Source: Salinisphaera sp. T31B1
Lineage (GTDB): Bacteria > Pseudomonadota > Gammaproteobacteria > Nevskiales > Salinisphaeraceae
DNA: 64,000 bases
NCBI RefSeq assembly: GCF_040361275.1
Contig: NZ_APNH01000001.1
Span: forward strand, 1,151,001-1,215,000
Direction of reading: 5' to 3'
Positions 29,900 through 40,975 of this stretch are shown here, in pieces. The notes under the pieces were generated by a model that saw only the letters and a program-made list of their open reading frames with translations, did no database searches and was not told the DNA's origin. Position numbers and translations under genes: made by a program. Every line of letters starts with the position of its first letter. Position 1 is the first letter of the stretch.

Positions 29900-30727
29900 A
29901 TGACCACTTCCTCTCCGAGCGCCCAAGAGCCGGTCCGCTATCGCAGCGTGTTCGTCTCGGATGTCCATCTGGGTACGGCCGGAAGCCAGGCCGAGCAGCT
30001 CAGCGCTTTTCTCAAGCATTGCCAGTGCGAGCATCTGTATCTGGTCGGTGACATCATCGACGGCTGGCGCCTGCAATCCACCTTTTTCTGGCCGCAGGAA
30101 CACACCAATGTCATCCGCAAGATCCTGACCAAATCCAAGCGGGGTACGCAGGTCTACTACGTAACCGGCAATCACGACGATTTCCTGCGCAAGTTCGTGG
30201 ACTACGAGCTGCGCATGGGCAATATCCGCGTGCTCAACGATGCCGTGCATACCACGGCCGACGGCCGGCGGCTGTTCGTGATCCATGGTGACCTGTTCGA
30301 TGTAGTCACCCGGTATCACCGCTGGGTCGCGCGTATCGGCGATGTCGCCTATATCACCCTGCTGCGCGTCAACCGCTATTTCAATAATGCCCGCGCACGC
30401 CTGGGCTATCCGTACTGGTCGCTGTCGGCCTATGCCAAGCATAAGGTCAAATCGGCGGTTAATTTCATCAGCGAGTTCGAGAAGGCGGTCGCGCACGAAT
30501 GTCGGCGCCGTGGTTTCGACGGCGTGGTCTGCGGCCATATCCATCACCCCGAGATCAAGAGGCTCGAGGGCGTGACCTATTACAACTCGGGTGACTGGGT
30601 GGAATCGGCCAGCGCCCTGGTCGAACATCTCGACGGCCGGATGGAGATCGTTTACTGGGATAGCGACAGAGCAGAGCATCGCGCCGGCGGGTTGCGCGAC
30701 AAGGTGCGGGCGCTCAACGCCGCCTGA
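29900..30727 (+). CDS. LpxH-like UDP-2,3-diacylglucosamine diphosphatase family
   Basis: The 275-residue calcineurin-like metallophosphoesterase has the five metal motifs SDVHLG (residues 20-25), GDIIDGW, GNHDDF, HGDLFD and CGHIHHP. The family hydrolyses UDP-2,3-diacylglucosamine to lipid X in lipid A synthesis; this longer type (~270 residues) is the LpxH2-like branch, whose activity is less certain. The segment between motifs 4 and 5 is helical and basic, suited to sit on the membrane. I start at the ATG at 29900, since longer frames would read antisense to purD. Confidence 0.8.
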   Translation: MTTSSPSAQEPVRYRSVFVSDVHLGTAGSQAEQLSAFLKHCQCEHLYLVGDIIDGWRLQSTFFWPQEHTNVIRKILTKSKRGTQVYYVTGNHDDFLRKFVDYELRMGNIRVLNDAVHTTADGRRLFVIHGDLFDVVTRYHRWVARIGDVAYITLLRVNRYFNNARARLGYPYWSLSAYAKHKVKSAVNFISEFEKAVAHECRRRGFDGVVCGHIHHPEIKRLEGVTYYNSGDWVESASALVEHLDGRMEIVYWDSDRAEHRAGGLRDKVRALNAA

Positions 30728-30798
30728 TGCCGGCTCGCCCACGCCGGGCGATCCCACGGTAGACTGTGCCGCGTCACGACCAGCCGGACGCGAGTGCC

Positions 30799-31317
30799 AT
30801 GACTGTTGAAGATACCCTCCACGAGGGCGAATTCCTGCGCTTGAAACGCGTGGGCACCTGGGAATACGCCGAACGCGTGAACGCCCGCTGTGCGGTGGTG
30901 ATCGTGGCGGTGACCGATGCCGGCGAACTGCTGCTCGTCGAACAGCCGCGCCAACCGGTCGGCGCGAACGTGCTCGAATTGCCGGCCGGGTTGGTTGGCG
31001 ATATCGACGGCGCCGAGGACGAAGAGATGGCGGTTGCCGCGGCGCGTGAGCTCGAGGAAGAGACCGGTTATCGCGCCGGCCGGCTCGAGTTCCTTGCTGG
31101 AGGGCCGCCCAGCGCCGGGCTGGCCAACGAGGCCGCGTATTTCTATCGCGCTTTCGACTTGCAGCGTATCGATGCCGGCGGCGGCGACGACAGCGAGCAG
31201 ATCACCCCGCATGCAGTGCCGCTCGACGGCATTGAGGCATGGCTTGCCGCGCGTGCCGGCGAGGGCGTGCTGGTCGATCCGAAGATCTATGCCGGTCTGT
31301 ATTTCGTCAATCGCTAA
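30799..31317 (+). CDS. Nudix hydrolase (ADP-ribose pyrophosphatase type)
   Basis: The 172-residue protein carries a near-canonical Nudix box (EMAVAAARELEEETGY) and the fold expected for ADP-ribose or related NDP-sugar pyrophosphatases (LLLVEQPRQPVGANVLELPAG before the box). It would split ADP-ribose or a similar nucleoside diphosphate derivative in the cytosol. I use the ATG at 30799; an in-frame GTG at 30766 is a weaker option. Its 3' end overlaps the convergent phosphopantetheinyl transferase by 11 bases. Confidence 0.85.
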   Translation: MTVEDTLHEGEFLRLKRVGTWEYAERVNARCAVVIVAVTDAGELLLVEQPRQPVGANVLELPAGLVGDIDGAEDEEMAVAAARELEEETGYRAGRLEFLAGGPPSAGLANEAAYFYRAFDLQRIDAGGGDDSEQITPHAVPLDGIEAWLAARAGEGVLVDPKIYAGLYFVNR

Positions 31318-31942
31318 GCGGCTGTGAGCGCAGGCGCACGATGGCCAGCGGTCGGTCGCAGGCCAGACAGGCTGCATAGCCCGGTGCGAGTTCGATCGAA
31401 CGGGTGATCCAGCGTCGGCCGTCGAGCGTCGCGCCGCCCTCGTCCAGCGTGATTGCGCGGATACGCTTGAGCCCCACGCGGCCGCTGGCCTTGACCGTGG
31501 CCTCGCGCGCGCACCAGTAGTCGAAGAACCGCGCCGGCGTCTGCTCGATCGCCGGCCGCTCGGCGTCGCCGATCAAGCGGCCCAGGCGGTCCGGCACGAC
31601 CGGGCGGCGGTGTTCAACGTCCAGTCCGATACGCATGTCCGGCGAATCGGCCAGCGCACAGGCCACCAGTGCCTGGCTATGGGAGATGCTGAACTCGGCC
31701 GCGCCGTCGATTCGCGGTCGGCCCCGGGCGTCCAGGCCGATGCGCTCGATCGCATGCCGGTCGTATCCAGCCTGCTCGAGCGCGCAGGCCAGCAACCACA
31801 GCCCGGTTTGTGTCCGCGCACGCGCCGCGGGCGAGCGCATGCGCGCCAGACGCGTCCGGTACGCCGGCGGCGCCGCCTCGATCGGCCGGCTGTATGCGAT
31901 TTTTTCTTGTGCGCCATCTAACAGGGTGTAGAATACATCCAT
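31307..31942 (-). CDS. Sfp-type 4'-phosphopantetheinyl transferase
   Basis: The 211-residue protein moves phosphopantetheine from CoA to the serine of carrier proteins. Motifs are GRPRI, FSISHSQALVACA, the Mg-binding IGLDVEH, and FDYWCAREATVKASGRVG, which is the WxxKEA region with CAREATVK. It begins in an AT-rich patch (ATTAATTTTTAATAATGG) with no clear ribosome site, so it may be translated from a very short leader. It is divergent from the P450/FAAL-ACP pair and would be well placed to activate that ACP domain, as well as other carriers in the cell. Confidence 0.88.
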   Translation of the reverse strand: MDVFYTLLDGAQEKIAYSRPIEAAPPAYRTRLARMRSPAARARTQTGLWLLACALEQAGYDRHAIERIGLDARGRPRIDGAAEFSISHSQALVACALADSPDMRIGLDVEHRRPVVPDRLGRLIGDAERPAIEQTPARFFDYWCAREATVKASGRVGLKRIRAITLDEGGATLDGRRWITRSIELAPGYAACLACDRPLAIVRLRSQPLSD

Positions 31943-32021
31943 TATTAAAAATTAATGTTCCCTTGTTGGATTGGACGTGCGAACGGGCGGCTTGGAGACG
32001 CCGTTGGCAACGTCGATCGAG
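31929..32021 (+). promoter_or_regulatory. AT-rich divergent promoter region, PPTase / P450
   Basis: An extended -10-like element TGTAGAAT (TAGAAT at 31929-31934) is followed by an AT-rich block with a perfect inverted repeat ATTAA-AAA-TTAAT near 31942-31956. The -35 match is poor. This AT island stands out in the GC-rich surroundings and is the only place from which the P450 gene can be driven. Confidence 0.35.
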
Positions 32022-32033
32022 ATGGGGTATTCG

Positions 32034-33341
32034 ATGTCGAACAGCTTATCCGATGTCCGGCCGGTCGTCGGGCCCAGCGCCTGTTTTCCCATAGGCCCGG
32101 ACGATGCCACCCGAAGCATGCTCTGGCGCTGGCACGGCGCCTTTGGCGATGTCTATCGTGTGCAGTCGGAAGACAATGCCGATGCCTCGTGGGTGATTCA
32201 CGATCCGGCGCTGGTCCAGAAGATCCTGGTCGGCCACGCCGCCAATTACCGCAAGGGCGCCGGGCTGGACCGGGTCCGTATTCTGCTGGGCAACGGCATC
32301 ATGGTCAGCGAAGGCGAGTTCTGGACGCGCCAGCGACGGCTGCTCCAGCCGGCGTTTCGTCCGCGCACGCTTGCCGATTTCAACGGTATGATCGATCAGG
32401 AAAACCGGCGTCTGGCCGAGCGCTGGCGCATGCATGCCGAGACCGGCCAGCCGCTCGAGGTAGCCGCTCAGATCAGCGAATCGACGCTGGTGATCGTACT
32501 CAAATCGATCTTCGGCGCCGACTACCCGTACATCGTCGAGGGCGAGTCGAATCCCTTCAGCCTGCTGACCGAGGAGCCCGAGCGCAATCTGCGTTTCGCA
32601 GCCCGGTTTCGGCGTCTGGGGCGGCTCGTCGAGCAGCTCATCGATCGCCGCGAGTCGGCGCCGCGTCCTGCGTTCGACTTTCTCGGCCATATGCTGGCCG
32701 CCCGCAGCCGAGCCGGCGAGGCCATGTCGCGCAAAGCGTTGATCGACGAGGTGATGACCCTGATCGTTGCCGGACACGAGACCACGGCCAGTGCACTGGC
32801 CTGGGCCTGGTACCTGATTGCGGTGAACCCGGTGATTCGCGAACGGCTACAGGCGGCGGCGGACCGCGTGGACCTCGATCAGCTGGGTCGCGACGGGGGT
32901 CATCGCAACCCGGATTTGGCGTACTTCGACGCGGTCATCAATGAAACCCTGCGTCTGTATCCGCCGGGATGGCTGCTATCGCGCCGGGCCGTGGCAGACG
33001 ACTCACTGGGTGAACACCGTATCGAGGCGGGCGCGCAGCTGTTCATCAGCCCGTATGTGCTGCATCGGCATCCGGACTACTGGCGTGCCCCGGAAACCTT
33101 CGATCCGGCGCGCTTCGAGCAGGGCGAAGAGCCCGCGCACCGGTTTGCCTATATCCCGTTCGCGGCCGGTCCCCGCCACTGTATCGGCGAGCAGATGGCC
33201 ATGACCGAGATGCGCGTGCATCTGGTGCACATGCTGCGCCGATTCACGCCGAGCTATGCCGATCCACATCCGCCGCAAATGGAATCGCATATCAACCTGC
33301 GGCCGGCAGACGGAATTTATTTACAATTGGCGGCGAGATAA
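32034..33341 (+). CDS. Cytochrome P450
   Basis: The 435-residue soluble P450 has all diagnostic motifs: I-helix AGHETTAS (about residues 246-253), the ETLR of the K-helix, and the heme-binding FAAGPRHCIG with the thiolate Cys at 383. The C-helix WTRQRRLLQPAF is also present. No membrane anchor is seen, as usual for bacteria; redox partners are not nearby. It resembles P450s that oxidise long acyl chains, but the group cannot be fixed by eye. I start at 32034; ATG 32022 is possible. The stop is 16 bases before the FAAL-ACP gene, so the two are almost surely co-transcribed, and the P450 may act on the ACP-bound acyl chain. Confidence 0.92.
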   Translation: MSNSLSDVRPVVGPSACFPIGPDDATRSMLWRWHGAFGDVYRVQSEDNADASWVIHDPALVQKILVGHAANYRKGAGLDRVRILLGNGIMVSEGEFWTRQRRLLQPAFRPRTLADFNGMIDQENRRLAERWRMHAETGQPLEVAAQISESTLVIVLKSIFGADYPYIVEGESNPFSLLTEEPERNLRFAARFRRLGRLVEQLIDRRESAPRPAFDFLGHMLAARSRAGEAMSRKALIDEVMTLIVAGHETTASALAWAWYLIAVNPVIRERLQAAADRVDLDQLGRDGGHRNPDLAYFDAVINETLRLYPPGWLLSRRAVADDSLGEHRIEAGAQLFISPYVLHRHPDYWRAPETFDPARFEQGEEPAHRFAYIPFAAGPRHCIGEQMAMTEMRVHLVHMLRRFTPSYADPHPPQMESHINLRPADGIYLQLAAR

Positions 33342-33357
33342 ACAACGCCCGTTTGCT

Positions 33358-35313
33358 ATGCACTCGTTCACCACATTGGACCAGGCGCTGGATGCCCAGG
33401 TTCACGGTTCTGCCGAAATCGGCTTCATCGACGGCGCCAACGACGAGCGCCGGCTCAGTTACAAATTGCTTTCGCGCGCGGCCCTGCGTTTGCTGGCGGT
33501 GCTGCAGGATCGCGGTGCCACGCAGGGCGAACCGGTCATCCTGTTCGTGGCCGACAATCTGCGGTTCGTACAGTTCTTCTGGGCAGCGATCTATGGTGGC
33601 CTGGTGCCGGTCCCGGTGGCTGCCGGTGCGGCCGATGCACATCTCGACAAGCTCGTGCGGGTCTGGAAACACCTCGGCGAACCGCGAGTGATTGCCGAAC
33701 CTCGGCATATCGAGCGCGTTCAGGCCTTTCTGGAACAGCGCGGCGAGCATGACGCCGCTGGCCGGCTCGCCGGCCAGGCGCTGTCCGACGAGCCGCCGGC
33801 GGTCGAGCGCGAAGCGGTACGGGCGAGCCTGAAGCCGGAAGATACTGCGTTCATCCAGTTCTCCTCCGGTTCGACCGGCGATCCGAAAGGGGTGGTGCTC
33901 ACCCACGCCAACGTGCTGGCCAACATCGCGGCCATCACGCAAGGCTCGCGGTTCGGTGAGCGCGAGATCGCGGTGTCGTGGATGCCGCTGACCCACGACA
34001 TGGGGCTGATCGGCTTTCATCTGACGCTGGTCTGCAATGGCTTCGACCATCATCTGATGGCGACCGACCTGTTCGCGCGTCGACCGTTATTGTGGCTGGA
34101 AAAAGCGTCGGAGAAACAGGCGACGCTGCTGTGTTCGCCCAACTTCGGCTATCGGCACACGCTGCGCGCGATCTCGGCCAAGGGCCTGCCCGAGCTGGAC
34201 CTATCGTCCGTGCGGCTGATCTACAACGGTGCCGAACCGATCGCGGCCCCGTTGGTGCGCGAATTTCTCGACACGCTGGCGCCGGCCGGTCTGAATGCAC
34301 ACAGCATGTTTGCCGTCTACGGTCTCGCCGAGGCCAGTCTCGCGGCCACCTTTCCGCCGGCCGGTTCGGGTCTGCGCAGCCTGCGAGTGGCGCGCGGCGA
34401 ACTCGGCGTGGGCGATGCGGTGTGCTTCGATGAGGGTGACACGTCGATCGAGCTGGTCAATCTCGGCGCGCCGGTGACCGGCACCGAAGTACGGATCGCC
34501 GATGCAAACGGCCAACCGCTGCCCGAGGACCGGGTCGGCCGGGTCTGGATCCGGGGCACCAACGTGACGGCCGGCTATCACGACAACGCGGCGGCCAACG
34601 ACGCGGCACTGATGGGCCACGGCTGGCTCGATACCGGCGATCTCGGTTTCGTGCACGGTGGTGATCTGCTGATCACCGGCCGGGCCAAGGAAATCATCTT
34701 CGTCAACGGCCAGAACCACTATCCGCAGGATCTGGAAGCGATCGCCGTGGACGTCGACGGCGTGGAGATGAACAAGATTGCGGCCGCCGGCGTACGCGCG
34801 CCGGGCGCGGATACCGACGACCTGGTGCTGTTTGTGGTCTTCCGTGGCCATCTGGCCGACTTCGTGCCGATCGCGCGTGAACTGGTCTCGAAGATCAACC
34901 ACCACGCCGGGTTGGCGGTGGCCCATGTGGTGCCGATCCGGCATATGCCCAAGACCACCAGCGGCAAGCTCCAACGTGCGCAGCTGGCCGGCGATTATGC
35001 CGCGGGGGTGTATGCCGAGACCGTCGCCGAGCTCGATGCACTGCTGCGCCCGAACGACAGCCCGGGCGCGGCGGCCGAGGACGCCGGCGACACCGTCGCG
35101 GATCTGAAGGCGATCTGCGACGAAGTCGCGCCCGACAAGCAGATCGGCTACGGCGACGATCTGTTCGAGATCGGACTGTCGTCGCTGGAACTGGCCCAGA
35201 TCCATGAAGGGATCGAAGCGCGCTGGCCGGATCGTCTCGAGGTCACCGACCTGTTCGACTATCCGACGATCAACGATCTCGCGGCCTATCTCGACGAGGA
35301 GCGCGCGGCGTAG
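33358..35313 (+). CDS. Fatty acyl-AMP ligase fused to acyl carrier protein domain
   Basis: The 651-residue protein has an adenylation domain (about residues 1-560) and a C-terminal carrier domain (about 575-651). The P-loop FSSGSTGDPKGV, PLTHDMGLIG, and the FAAL-like ITGRAKEIIFVNGQNHYPQD support a fatty acyl-AMP ligase, which activates free fatty acids with ATP and passes them to an ACP and not to CoA. The ACP domain has LFEIGLSSLEL with the phosphopantetheine Ser near 609. With the P450 upstream and the PPTase divergent, it looks like a dedicated loading module for a modified acyl chain. There is no NRPS or PKS module in the window. Confidence 0.9.
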   Translation: MHSFTTLDQALDAQVHGSAEIGFIDGANDERRLSYKLLSRAALRLLAVLQDRGATQGEPVILFVADNLRFVQFFWAAIYGGLVPVPVAAGAADAHLDKLVRVWKHLGEPRVIAEPRHIERVQAFLEQRGEHDAAGRLAGQALSDEPPAVEREAVRASLKPEDTAFIQFSSGSTGDPKGVVLTHANVLANIAAITQGSRFGEREIAVSWMPLTHDMGLIGFHLTLVCNGFDHHLMATDLFARRPLLWLEKASEKQATLLCSPNFGYRHTLRAISAKGLPELDLSSVRLIYNGAEPIAAPLVREFLDTLAPAGLNAHSMFAVYGLAEASLAATFPPAGSGLRSLRVARGELGVGDAVCFDEGDTSIELVNLGAPVTGTEVRIADANGQPLPEDRVGRVWIRGTNVTAGYHDNAAANDAALMGHGWLDTGDLGFVHGGDLLITGRAKEIIFVNGQNHYPQDLEAIAVDVDGVEMNKIAAAGVRAPGADTDDLVLFVVFRGHLADFVPIARELVSKINHHAGLAVAHVVPIRHMPKTTSGKLQRAQLAGDYAAGVYAETVAELDALLRPNDSPGAAAEDAGDTVADLKAICDEVAPDKQIGYGDDLFEIGLSSLELAQIHEGIEARWPDRLEVTDLFDYPTINDLAAYLDEERAA

Positions 35314-35325
35314 ACCGCCACCGGT

Positions 35326-36051
35326 TTAACCCGAACGACGGCGCTCGCGGCGAGGGTTCGCGCCCAGCTCGGCGTCGGCGGTATCGGTCAAGCCGTCCAG
35401 TCGCTGGCCGAGTTCGCGTGCGCGCTGGTCGATATCGTCGCCGCGGGCGACCGTCAGCGGCTCGCCAATGGTGATCACGACGCGAGCGAACGGCTTGGGA
35501 ATGATCAACGCATCCCACGAACCGAGCTGCCAGTAGCGGTCGGCGGCGAACGACATCGGCAGCAAAGGGGACCGGGTCAGCTGGGCGAGCATGATGCTGC
35601 CCGGCTTGACCTGGCGGGCCGGGCCGTGTGGACCGTCCGGATGCAGAATCGGCGATACGCCCTCACGCATGGTCGTGTACATATCGCGCAGCGCTTTGGC
35701 TCCGGTCCGGTTGGCCGATCCGCGCACGATGCGCGCGCCCATGCCTGACACCATCCGAGCCACGAGCTCGCCGTCGCGGGAGGGCGAGACCAGAAATCCC
35801 GGTTCGAGCCCCTGTTCGCGTGCCCGCAGCAGATGTCCGACACATACGCTCAGTCGCTGGTGCCAGCAGCAGGCGAGTAACGGCTGTCCTTGTGAGATCA
35901 GTCGTTCGAGATGGGACGCCCCCTCGATACGCTGGATCCGGCAGCTGGCGAGCAATGCGCGGGCCAGTACGCGCAGAATCGGAGCCGCCAGCCGCATCCA
36001 CCAGGGGGATGCGGGCTGCGCCTCTGGGCGGGTATTGGATGACTCGGTCAT
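35326..36051 (-). CDS. DUF374 lysophospholipid acyltransferase family protein 1
   Basis: The 241-residue protein has a short N-terminal hydrophobic segment (about 22-40) that anchors it to the membrane. A DUF374 acyltransferase domain follows: CCWHQRLSV, LVSPSRDGELVARM, RGSANRTGAKAL and HPDGPHGPARQVKPG. Such enzymes transfer an acyl group to a glycerophospholipid or lipid A precursor; donor and acceptor are unknown. Its start overlaps the stop of a second DUF374 gene by four bases, and the two are clear paralogues. It ends 12 bases from the convergent FAAL-ACP gene. Confidence 0.85.
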   Translation of the reverse strand: MTESSNTRPEAQPASPWWMRLAAPILRVLARALLASCRIQRIEGASHLERLISQGQPLLACCWHQRLSVCVGHLLRAREQGLEPGFLVSPSRDGELVARMVSGMGARIVRGSANRTGAKALRDMYTTMREGVSPILHPDGPHGPARQVKPGSIMLAQLTRSPLLPMSFAADRYWQLGSWDALIIPKPFARVVITIGEPLTVARGDDIDQRARELGQRLDGLTDTADAELGANPRRERRRSG

Positions 36052-36785
36052 GCGGTACGTCGCTTGTGTGTCTGTGCGGCTTCGGCGATCGCCTCGAGGC
36101 GGTCGATTTCCTGGCCGATATCGGCCGCCAGGGCCTCGGCCTGTTGGGTGCCGTGAAGTGCCCCGACCCACAACGGTTCGCCCACGGCGACGGTCAGGTG
36201 GGAGAAGGGCTTGGGAATACGGCTGCCATCCCAGGATTTCATCTGCCAGTAGCGGCTGGCCGCACAACCCATCGGCCACAGGGGCGCGCCGCTGCGACTG
36301 GCCAGCACGATTGCGCCGGGCTTGAATCGATGCGCCGGTCCCCGCGGGCCGTCGCCGTAGATCATCGGGGCGATACCGTCTGCGACTGCCTGTGTGAGCG
36401 CGCGCACCGCTTCGCTGCCGCTGCGCGTGGAAGACCCGCGAATCGGGACCGCCGCGTAGAACCGACACACGCGCGCGATCATGTCGCCCTCGCGGGACGG
36501 GCTGATCAGAAACCCGAGTGGGAGCCCCTGCCGGATCAGCGATTGCAGAAAAAGACCGCTGCAGACCAGCGTTTGATGCCAGCCGCAGGGAATGGCCGGT
36601 GCGCCCGAGCTCAGCCCGGTGGCCACCCGGGATTCGCCGTGGACCAAGGTGATCCGGCAGGTCCGTCGCAGCACGCCGGCGATCAGGCATATGCCGGCCG
36701 CCACCGCGCGCCCCATCAGCTGCTCGAGCCAGACGGGCCGGTCCTTTTTGCGGCGGGTTTTTCTCGGCGTGGCGGTCGGCGCCAT
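36048..36785 (-). CDS. DUF374 lysophospholipid acyltransferase family protein 2
   Basis: The 245-residue paralogue of the downstream protein is led by a strongly basic N-terminus (PRKTRRKKDRP) and one hydrophobic helix (about 25-42). The core has CGWHQTLVC, FLISPSREGDMIARV, RGSSTRSGSEAV and YGDGPRGPAHRFKPG. The His in the WH motif and the Gly-Pro-rich substrate loop are shared with protein 1. The two are translationally coupled. The tandem pair may act on different acceptors or add two acyl chains. The tail from about residue 215 is helical and polar. Confidence 0.85.
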   Translation of the reverse strand: MAPTATPRKTRRKKDRPVWLEQLMGRAVAAGICLIAGVLRRTCRITLVHGESRVATGLSSGAPAIPCGWHQTLVCSGLFLQSLIRQGLPLGFLISPSREGDMIARVCRFYAAVPIRGSSTRSGSEAVRALTQAVADGIAPMIYGDGPRGPAHRFKPGAIVLASRSGAPLWPMGCAASRYWQMKSWDGSRIPKPFSHLTVAVGEPLWVGALHGTQQAEALAADIGQEIDRLEAIAEAAQTHKRRTA

Positions 36786-36903
36786 GGGGAATCTCGGTCG
36801 CGGGGCCGGCGATGATGCGGCGCCAGCCTAAGCCTAACCCGTATCGGTTGAAACCGTGGGCGATCGCTCGCATCCTTTGCCGACCATTCCTGTCCGAATC
36901 GCC

Positions 36904-38384
36904 ATGTCCGCTCTGGGACGACTGTACGGCCGAGCGCCGGCTCTGCTGACCGATCTGTATCAGCTGACCATGGCGTATGCGCACTGGTACAACGGCCACC
37001 ACGAACGCGAGGCCGTGTTCCACCTGTTCTTTCGCGAGGCGCCGTTCAACAACGGGTTTGCCGTGGCCTGCGGCATCGAGACCGCTCTGGAATACGTCAC
37101 CCAGATGCGCTTCGAGGCCGAGGATATCGCCTACCTGGCCACGCTCAAGGACAACGCCGGCAACCCGCTGTTCGCGGATGATTTCCTGGATTACCTCCGA
37201 GACTTCCGTTTTACCGGTGATATCGATGCCATGGCCGAGGGCACGGCAGTGTTCGCCCACCAGCCGATGCTGCGTGTGCGCGCGCCCATCATCGCCGCCC
37301 AGATGCTCGAAACCGCGCTGCTGAATCTGATCAACTTCCCGACCCTGGTCGCGACCAAGGCCGCACGCATTGCACATGCCGCCGGGGCCGATCCGGTCCT
37401 GGATTTCGGACTGCGCAAGGCGCAGGGCATCGACGGCGGTGTCTCGGCCGCGCGCGCAGCCTATATCGGCGGCTGCGCGGGCACCTCGAACGTGCTGGCC
37501 GGGCAGCTGTTCGGTATTCCGGTCTCGGGTACGCATGCCCACGGTTGGGTCATGGCCTTCGACGCCGAACTGGATGCCTTCGACGCCTATGCCGCAGCGC
37601 TGCCCGATCACTGCATCTTCCTGGTGGACACCTACAACACGATCGAGGGCGTGCGTCACGCGATCGAGGCCGGACACAAGCTGCGGGCCGCCGGACACGA
37701 GATGCGGGGCATACGTCTGGATTCGGGCGATCTGGCCGAACTGTCGCGGACCGCTCGCCGCATGCTCGATGAGGCCGGCTTCGAGCAGGCCCGGATCGCG
37801 GCCAGCTCGAGTCTGGACGAGCATGTGATCGCCGACCTGAAGGCCCGCGGTGCGCCGATCGTACTCTGGGGCGTGGGGACCAAATTGATCACCGCTCAGC
37901 CGGATGCCGCACTCGACGGCGTCTACAAGCTCGCGGCCATGCGCAACGACGCCGGGCGCTGGTCCTACCGCATGAAGCTGTCGGATACGCCCGGCAAACT
38001 CACCCGTCCAGGCGTTCAGCAGGTTCGTCGCTACTACGAGGACGCCACGCCCGTGGCCGATCTGCTCTACGACGAGGCCGCCACCCATACCGCCTGGTGC
38101 GGCGCCGACCAGACCGGCGTTCAGGAGTTCGCCGAAATCCCGAACTATCAGGACCTGCTCGTGCCGATGGTGCGCGGTGGCCGGCGTGTCGCCAGCCCTC
38201 CGGCGCTGGCGGACGTGCGCGCACACGCGCTGGCCCAGTTTGCGCTGTTCGCCTCGCGCGCAGACTATCCGGCATTGATCGACCGTTATCTGGATGAGGC
38301 GACCGATGATCTGCGCGACTGGCTGGCCGGTCGTCATGCATCAAGCGACGAACACAGGCCCGAACGTTCGACGGATACCCGGGC

Positions 38385-38388
<4 letters not shown>
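36904..38388 (+). CDS. pncB: Nicotinate phosphoribosyltransferase
   Basis: The 494-residue enzyme makes nicotinate mononucleotide from nicotinate and PRPP in NAD salvage. The N-terminal LLTDLYQLTMAYAHWYNG, the central VSGTHAHGWVMAF with the active-site His, and RLDSGDLAEL match the family. I start at the ATG at 36904 over a longer in-frame start at 36856, because the family begins close to there. The stop overlaps the start of pncA by four bases, forming a salvage operon. Confidence 0.95.

Positions 38389-40975
<2,587 letters not shown>

Follow-up and report, generated by a model that had tools for sequence, protein, structure and literature searches.

The late acyltransferases of lipid A draw on acyl chains carried by acyl carrier protein (ACP) and supplied by ordinary fatty acid synthesis, and in Rhizobiales a dedicated carrier, AcpXL, serves a single late acyltransferase, the long-chain enzyme LpxXL. 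According to the available part of PMC6148475, DUF374 proteins constitute the LpxJ family, whose members carry out late acylation of lipid A: LpxJ, present in Campylobacterota and Rickettsia, replaces LpxM for the 3' secondary acylation of lipid A, and W60, H61, D86, D132, W172 and D173 are named as essential in the Rickettsia enzyme. A dedicated supply of acyl chains is also described for proteobacterial sphingolipids, to which a specialised acyl-ACP synthetase and ACP (AasR and AcpR) steer free fatty acids (PMC9386255, in part), and in polyyne clusters a fatty acyl-AMP ligase (FAAL) accompanies a dedicated ACP, in some clusters together with a cytochrome P450 (PMC8406139, in part). The subject of this report is a five-gene locus of Salinisphaera sp. 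T31B1 (source genome of 4.36 Mb in 9 contigs), located at 31307..36785 of the window, that is, the whole 64,000-nucleotide stretch of contig NZ_APNH01000001.1 (positions 1,151,001 to 1,215,000) that was analysed. It encodes an Sfp-type 4'-phosphopantetheinyl transferase (PPTase), a cytochrome P450, a fusion of FAAL and ACP (FAAL-ACP) and two DUF374 proteins, copies a and b. The enzymes are known, as is the logic of a dedicated ACP for one lipid; the combination with a P450 was not found described.

From the gene set, its conservation and co-occurrence, the catalytic residues and the predicted folds of the P450 and of DUF374 copy a, we infer that the locus is a dedicated acyl-ACP module that supplies an LpxJ-type enzyme with a chain oxidised by the P450, probably for attachment to lipid A (probability roughly 0.5). 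The PPTase would arm the ACP of the fusion, and the FAAL would adenylate a free fatty acid and load it on its own ACP. The P450 would oxidise the chain while it is ACP-carried or just before loading, hydroxylation being the likely reaction. The LpxJ-type DUF374 protein would then transfer this chain from FAAL-ACP to a lipid; lipid A is the most likely acceptor, and there the chain would be a secondary one in place of the product of LpxM. That the cassette genes act together on an envelope lipid, in keeping with the membrane-lipid product suggested by the sequence-only reading, we regard as probable; that this lipid is lipid A is closer to an even call. A fuller version is put forward tentatively: lipid A may carry a secondary chain that the P450 oxidised on the FAAL-loaded, dedicated ACP, its completion then drawing on free (salvaged or exogenous) fatty acids and not on the AcpP pool, with a tailoring enzyme that can be swapped by lineage (P450, KAS III in genome G226, radical SAM in locus L080, others). 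If this is true, the provision of an acyltransferase with a loading enzyme, a carrier and a P450 of its own would constitute a new route to oxygenated outer-membrane chains, and fatty acid salvage would be linked to the make-up of the outer membrane. A DUF374 clade that spans several gammaproteobacterial lineages, many known solely from metagenome assemblies, would also gain a function open to test.

Compared with the cassette, the AcpXL/LpxXL system, which shares the proposed principle of one carrier for one transferase, has no FAAL and no P450, and LpxXL belongs to the PF03279 family. AasR/AcpR is the closest precedent for the proposed donor-side logic: in both cases a dedicated synthetase and ACP would direct free fatty acid to one lipid, whereas the cassette has a synthetase-ACP fusion, an added P450 and a DUF374 partner in place of serine palmitoyltransferase (SPT; PMC9386255, in part). 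With LpxJ the cassette shares the Pfam family, the six essential residues (in copy a) and the absence of LpxM by model cut-off; it differs in that its DUF374 protein is tied genetically to a FAAL-ACP and P450 of its own, while the available part of PMC6148475 mentions no dedicated donor, and in that copy b has Glu for Asp86. No such cassette was described in the open-access literature on DUF374 (titles and starts of abstracts) or in combined searches, which is not proof of absence, and the open-access literature held nothing usable on Salinisphaera lipid A or hydroxy fatty acids.

One line of evidence for the proposal is the linkage between FAAL-ACP and DUF374. Eighty loci, the best 80 of 577 confirmed candidates, were picked by FAAL-ACP similarity alone; the presence of FAAL-ACP in every locus follows from this choice, and the loci were thus not selected for the other genes. 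Counts refer to the 55 loci whose flanks reach 4 kb or more upstream and 1.5 kb or more downstream. P450, PPTase and DUF374 (threshold 1e-70) were found by profile search, the first two being counted anywhere on the fetched stretch and DUF374 within 6 kb of FAAL-ACP; counts of neighbouring genes rest on first-pass gene calling. DUF374 was found in 49 of the 55 loci, P450 in 45 and PPTase in 34. The sequence-only reading had named as its own refutation the finding that P450/FAAL-ACP pairs elsewhere never accompany DUF374 genes, and the counts show the opposite; of the co-occurring set that it envisaged, DUF374 is strongly linked, and P450 and PPTase are optional. In 38 of the 49 loci DUF374 lies upstream on the minus strand, in 8 (the Salinisphaera type) downstream on that strand and in 3 upstream on the plus strand, so that the link has survived rearrangement; it is also retained in loci that lack the P450. 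The six loci without DUF374 within 6 kb are L033, L047, L055, L072, L080 and L081. In L033 it lies ~6.7 kb from FAAL-ACP, across a stretch with an FGGY kinase, a permease, FAD oxidoreductases and a DeoR regulator and without a lipid gene; in L047 and L081 the cassette sits in a sphingolipid locus; and in L072 a PF03279 gene stands 5.1 kb away. A count that used a looser threshold and an imprecisely placed FAAL start, and covered the 58 loci having 4 kb or more upstream, gave DUF374 in 53; the exceptions were L047, L055, L072, L080 and L081.

The gene beside FAAL-ACP is usually the P450. Other types, each resting on one to three loci, are a KAS III gene in G226 (L192), a radical SAM/SPASM gene in L080 (shared, by gene cluster, with L055), an FAA-hydrolase-like gene in L075 (likewise shared with L087 and L100) and a pyridine nucleotide oxidoreductase gene in L074. 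This variety is compatible with a carrier on which different lineages modify the chain in different ways. At L109 and L086, FAAL-ACP and DUF374 stand beside a xanthomonadin-like set (FkbO/Hyg5-like chorismatase, FAD monooxygenase, AMP ligase and PF03279), identified by domain scan at L109 and assigned by gene cluster only at L086.

Co-occurrence was also counted in 185 genomes of the same class, drawn evenly, at thresholds of E 1e-120 for FAAL-ACP, E 1e-60 for P450 and E 1e-100 for SPT, with DUF374 taken over its model cut-off. FAAL-ACP is present in 8 of the 185. DUF374 occurs in 7 of these 8 genomes vs 15 of the 177 others (Fisher p 9.6e-7, not corrected for kinship); it lies within 3 kb of FAAL-ACP in six of the seven and on another contig in G077. 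The P450 subfamily is likewise found in 8 of the 185 genomes and adjoins FAAL-ACP in 7 of the 8, and is nearly cassette-specific in this sample. Within Salinisphaeraceae, 16 of 17 genomes carry FAAL-ACP, and in all 16 every DUF374 match lies no more than ~10 kb from it. The seventeenth, G015, has no FAAL-ACP match genome-wide and neither P450 nor FAAL-ACP in the syntenic stretch.

DUF374 copies a (35326..36051, PF04028 68.8 bits) and b (36048..36785, 58.8 bits; cut-off 26.8 for both) are encoded on the minus strand; no NCBIfam model matched either protein. They had been labelled lysophospholipid acyltransferases, which is probably wrong given the assignment of DUF374 to the LpxJ family (PMC6148475, in part). 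All six LpxJ-essential residues, including the His61/Asp132 dyad, are kept in copy a, and copy b keeps five, Glu replacing Asp86 as in the other copies read of its clade. Across 70 aligned DUF374 rows five of the essential positions are invariant and position 86 is Asp in 62 and Glu in 8; in a wider set a few rows deviate at essential positions (L180, for example, has Cys at 173). Six rows found with the DUF374 profile lacked the motif residues and were dropped as not DUF374 (one that was scanned is a cation efflux protein); all six fall outside the E 1e-70 threshold of the locus count. The predicted structure of copy a has the LPLAT acyltransferase fold.

A DUF374 tree of 137 rows (119 different, midpoint root, several rows with long branches) places the cassette proteins in one clade of 101 rows with support of 100/100, outside which lie the sampled stand-alone DUF374s and the six dropped rows. 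Two members of the clade, from G015 and G145, come from genomes without FAAL-ACP, and in both a PPTase gene is beside DUF374. Copy b, a paralogue found in Salinisphaeraceae, forms a separate clade (support 100/99). A clade-a copy is present in all 15 Salinisphaeraceae genomes of the tree that have FAAL-ACP (G009 was left out) and a clade-b copy in 10. The DUF374 pair that had been noted is real here, and is a duplication of this family, copy b being missing in 5 of the 15. Since the G015 protein groups with clade b and each of the 15 FAAL-ACP genomes has a clade-a copy, FAAL-ACP is accompanied by copy a, whereas copy b can occur without it, a distinction resting on the one loss in G015.

The genome has two PF03279 genes, one LpxL-like and one in an SPT locus on contig 3. 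The LpxL-like gene scores 269.8 bits against TIGR02207 (cut-off 297.8) vs 153 against TIGR02208 (cut-off 336), and no PF03279 gene of the genome passes TIGR02208, the LpxM model (153 and 62.8 bits). LpxM is thus absent by model cut-off and a single gene is a candidate LpxL, a setting in which LpxJ is found elsewhere. G215, which has FAAL-ACP and P450 and no DUF374 match, carries a PF03279 gene directly beside FAAL-ACP and an LpxL-like gene on another contig. A low number of PF03279 genes was considered as a sign that DUF374 replaces LpxM: 11 of 61 genomes have a single PF03279 gene, and all 11 carry DUF374. This correlation was not used because it is confounded by the SPT locus, six of the 11 being exactly the Salinisphaera genomes without SPT, and the second PF03279 gene of T31B1 itself lying in its SPT locus.

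The FAAL-ACP fusion (651 aa, 33358..35313, plus strand) matches PF00501 (187 bits) and PF00550, its ACP domain comprising residues 586-645 (35113..35292, plus strand; 34.1 bits) with the phosphopantetheine Ser609 at 35182-35184 (plus strand). This serine is present in 81 of 83 aligned rows, the other 2 having a gap. Among NCBIfam models a fatty acyl-AMP ligase scores highest (389 bits, under its cut-off of 600), and 15 PDB sequences match at E 1e-40, FadD32, FadD23 and a fatty acyl-adenylate ligase among them. Compared with E. coli FadD, the protein has an insertion of 25 residues, also present in the AasR-like FAAL of the same genome, to which the cassette FAAL is 37% identical. Such an insertion is a marker of FAALs. 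By its matches and the insertion the AMP-binding domain is closest to FAALs, and as a FAAL it would make acyl-AMP and acyl-ACP and not acyl-CoA. The P450 (435 aa, CYP102/CYP97/CYP184-like; 32034..33341, plus strand, ATG at 32034; PF00067 232 bits) belongs to an alignment in which the heme-ligand Cys, the ExxR motif and the acid/Thr pair of helix I are kept in 61 of 61 sequences, and the predicted folds of the P450 and of DUF374 copy a support the assigned families. The PPTase (211 aa, 31307..31942, minus strand; PF01648 27.5 bits, cut-off 25) has the motif His, Asp, Glu, Glu, Lys, which all 40 aligned PPTases of the cassette share; the Lys position of WxxKEA, however, varies (19 Arg, 12 Lys, 9 other) and is Arg in this protein. 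The statement that no nonribosomal peptide synthetase or polyketide synthase is present holds at the locus; elsewhere the genome has an AMP-binding match in an open frame of 2,746 aa, and the PPTase may therefore have other clients.

Several observations weigh against the proposed lipid A module. The syntenic stretch of G015 keeps the PPTase and one DUF374 gene without FAAL-ACP, and G145 likewise keeps both; P450 is missing in 10 of the 55 loci and PPTase in 21. Many loci come from related metagenome-assembled genomes that share synteny, so the 55 are not independent events, and the DUF374 tree holds no characterised LpxJ. No redox partner for the P450 was found among the nine genes scanned around the locus. 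Genes of lipopolysaccharide (LPS) type (PF03279, ArnT-like PMT_2 with ArnC-like GT2, and GT9) flank 28 of the 80 loci, which speaks for the module, but the count has no random-locus control and for it one representative per gene cluster was scanned, the Arn-like matches being far below cut-off. The pattern of one LpxL plus the cassette acyltransferase is not uniform, since G236 (72% complete) carries DUF374 together with two strong PF03279 genes, and the single PF03279 match of G121 is very weak. Finally, at L159 and L160 the cassette sits in a sphingolipid locus without a cassette DUF374.

These last two loci bear directly on an alternative in which P450 and FAAL-ACP together provide sphingolipid (ceramide) synthesis with a hydroxylated acyl chain and the association with DUF374 is secondary. 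In Panacagrimonas (L159) and G035 (L160) an AasR-like FAAL and an SPT-type gene come directly after PPTase-P450-FAAL-ACP; L160 also has an ACP, an NTP-transferase, a CDP-alcohol transferase and an LptF/G-like gene nearby. In loci of the Panacagrimonas type the oxidised chain may go to a sphingolipid. The T31B1 genome has an SPT locus too, on another contig (G000:C3) and not at the cassette, and among relatives with FAAL-ACP identity of 49% or more SPT (E 1e-120) occurs in 13 of 19 FAAL-ACP genomes. The remaining six lack such an SPT (all are Salinisphaera, two being 81-85% complete), which makes a sphingolipid unlikely as a general answer; moreover, SPT adjoins the cassette in 2 of the 80 loci, and in the class sample it is present in 2 of 8 FAAL-ACP genomes vs 7 of 177 others (p 0.05). 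We therefore consider this alternative improbable. The T31B1 SPT locus itself (L142, G000:C3:232000-251000, outside the window) comprises SPT, an AasR-like FAAL, an ACP, an SDR, an epimerase, an LptF/G-like gene, an NTP transferase and PF03279; its SPT has bacterial SPTs as best PDB matches (E 1e-128).

If the DUF374 proteins of the cassette clade do not function as LpxJ, the acceptor could be another envelope lipid, such as a glycerophospholipid, a hopanoid or an unknown glycolipid. This we find doubtful: the characterised DUF374 enzymes are lipid A acyltransferases (PMC6148475, in part), the LPS-type neighbours count against it, and in the 16 FAAL-ACP genomes of Salinisphaeraceae every DUF374 match belongs to the cassette. 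A further alternative is a soluble or secreted acyl product made by FAAL-ACP and P450, with DUF374 acting separately with AcpP. FAAL and ACP do belong to polyyne pathways, 10 actinobacterial polyyne clusters have a P450 (PMC8406139, in part), and DUF374 with PPTase but without FAAL-ACP in G015 and G145 would fit. Polyyne clusters, however, have a desaturase triad and mostly a thioesterase and rubredoxin (same source), none of which is among the nine genes scanned at 29936-39011, and the DUF374 linkage holds across gene orders and in P450-less loci; such a product is accordingly unlikely. Least credible is cleavage of acyl-ACP by the P450 to pimeloyl-ACP for biotin. This is the reaction of Bacillus BioI, which acts on acyl-ACP, and in the T31B1 genome the best BioC match reaches 77 bits, below the model cut-off of 185. 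Searches with E. coli BioA/B/C/D/F/H (tblastn) of the window, the 80 loci and 9 further stretches returned one weak match to BioA and four to BioF, each of the four lying at an SPT-type gene. A BioI-type P450 encoded with biotin genes was thus set aside, no convincing biotin gene being near the cassette; the biotin role also leaves DUF374 unexplained, and the restriction of FAAL-ACP to just 8 of 185 genomes counts against it. CYP107H1 (BioI) was not among the 50 matches listed by Foldseek for the P450, which excludes nothing.

The layout of the locus agrees with that given by the sequence-only reading: the five reading frames are present and all exceed their Pfam cut-offs, the PPTase is divergent from P450 and FAAL-ACP, and FAAL-ACP (end 35313) is 12 bases from the stop of the convergent DUF374 copy a. 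The P450 ends at 33341 and FAAL-ACP starts at 33358, a gap of 16 bases, so that the two are probably one transcript; copies a and b of DUF374 overlap by 4 bases and are probably one separate transcript. No sigma-70-type match was found in the 91-base stretch between PPTase and P450 (31943..32033), and a scan for promoters and terminators gave no signal above chance. The locus is flanked by a NUDIX gene on one side and a nicotinate phosphoribosyltransferase (NAPRTase) gene on the other. Just upstream of the PPTase lie an LpxH-like metallophosphoesterase (29936-30727, below the LpxH cut-offs) and the NUDIX hydrolase (30766-31317); by first-pass clustering the former is found in 5 and the latter in 9 of the 80 loci, all of Salinisphaera type. 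The NAPRTase and a nicotinamidase, genes of NAD synthesis, adjoin the Salinisphaera cassette at 36856-39011 of the window. NadC is near the cassette in 29 of the 80 loci and a PAS-GGDEF-EAL gene in 42, proximity that may be explained by shared synteny. One Salinisphaera-type locus with the same synteny and 79% FAAL-ACP identity (L031) comes from a record titled Endozoicomonas sp. G2_2 (NZ_JAGHQU010000003.1), a name that is probably wrong.

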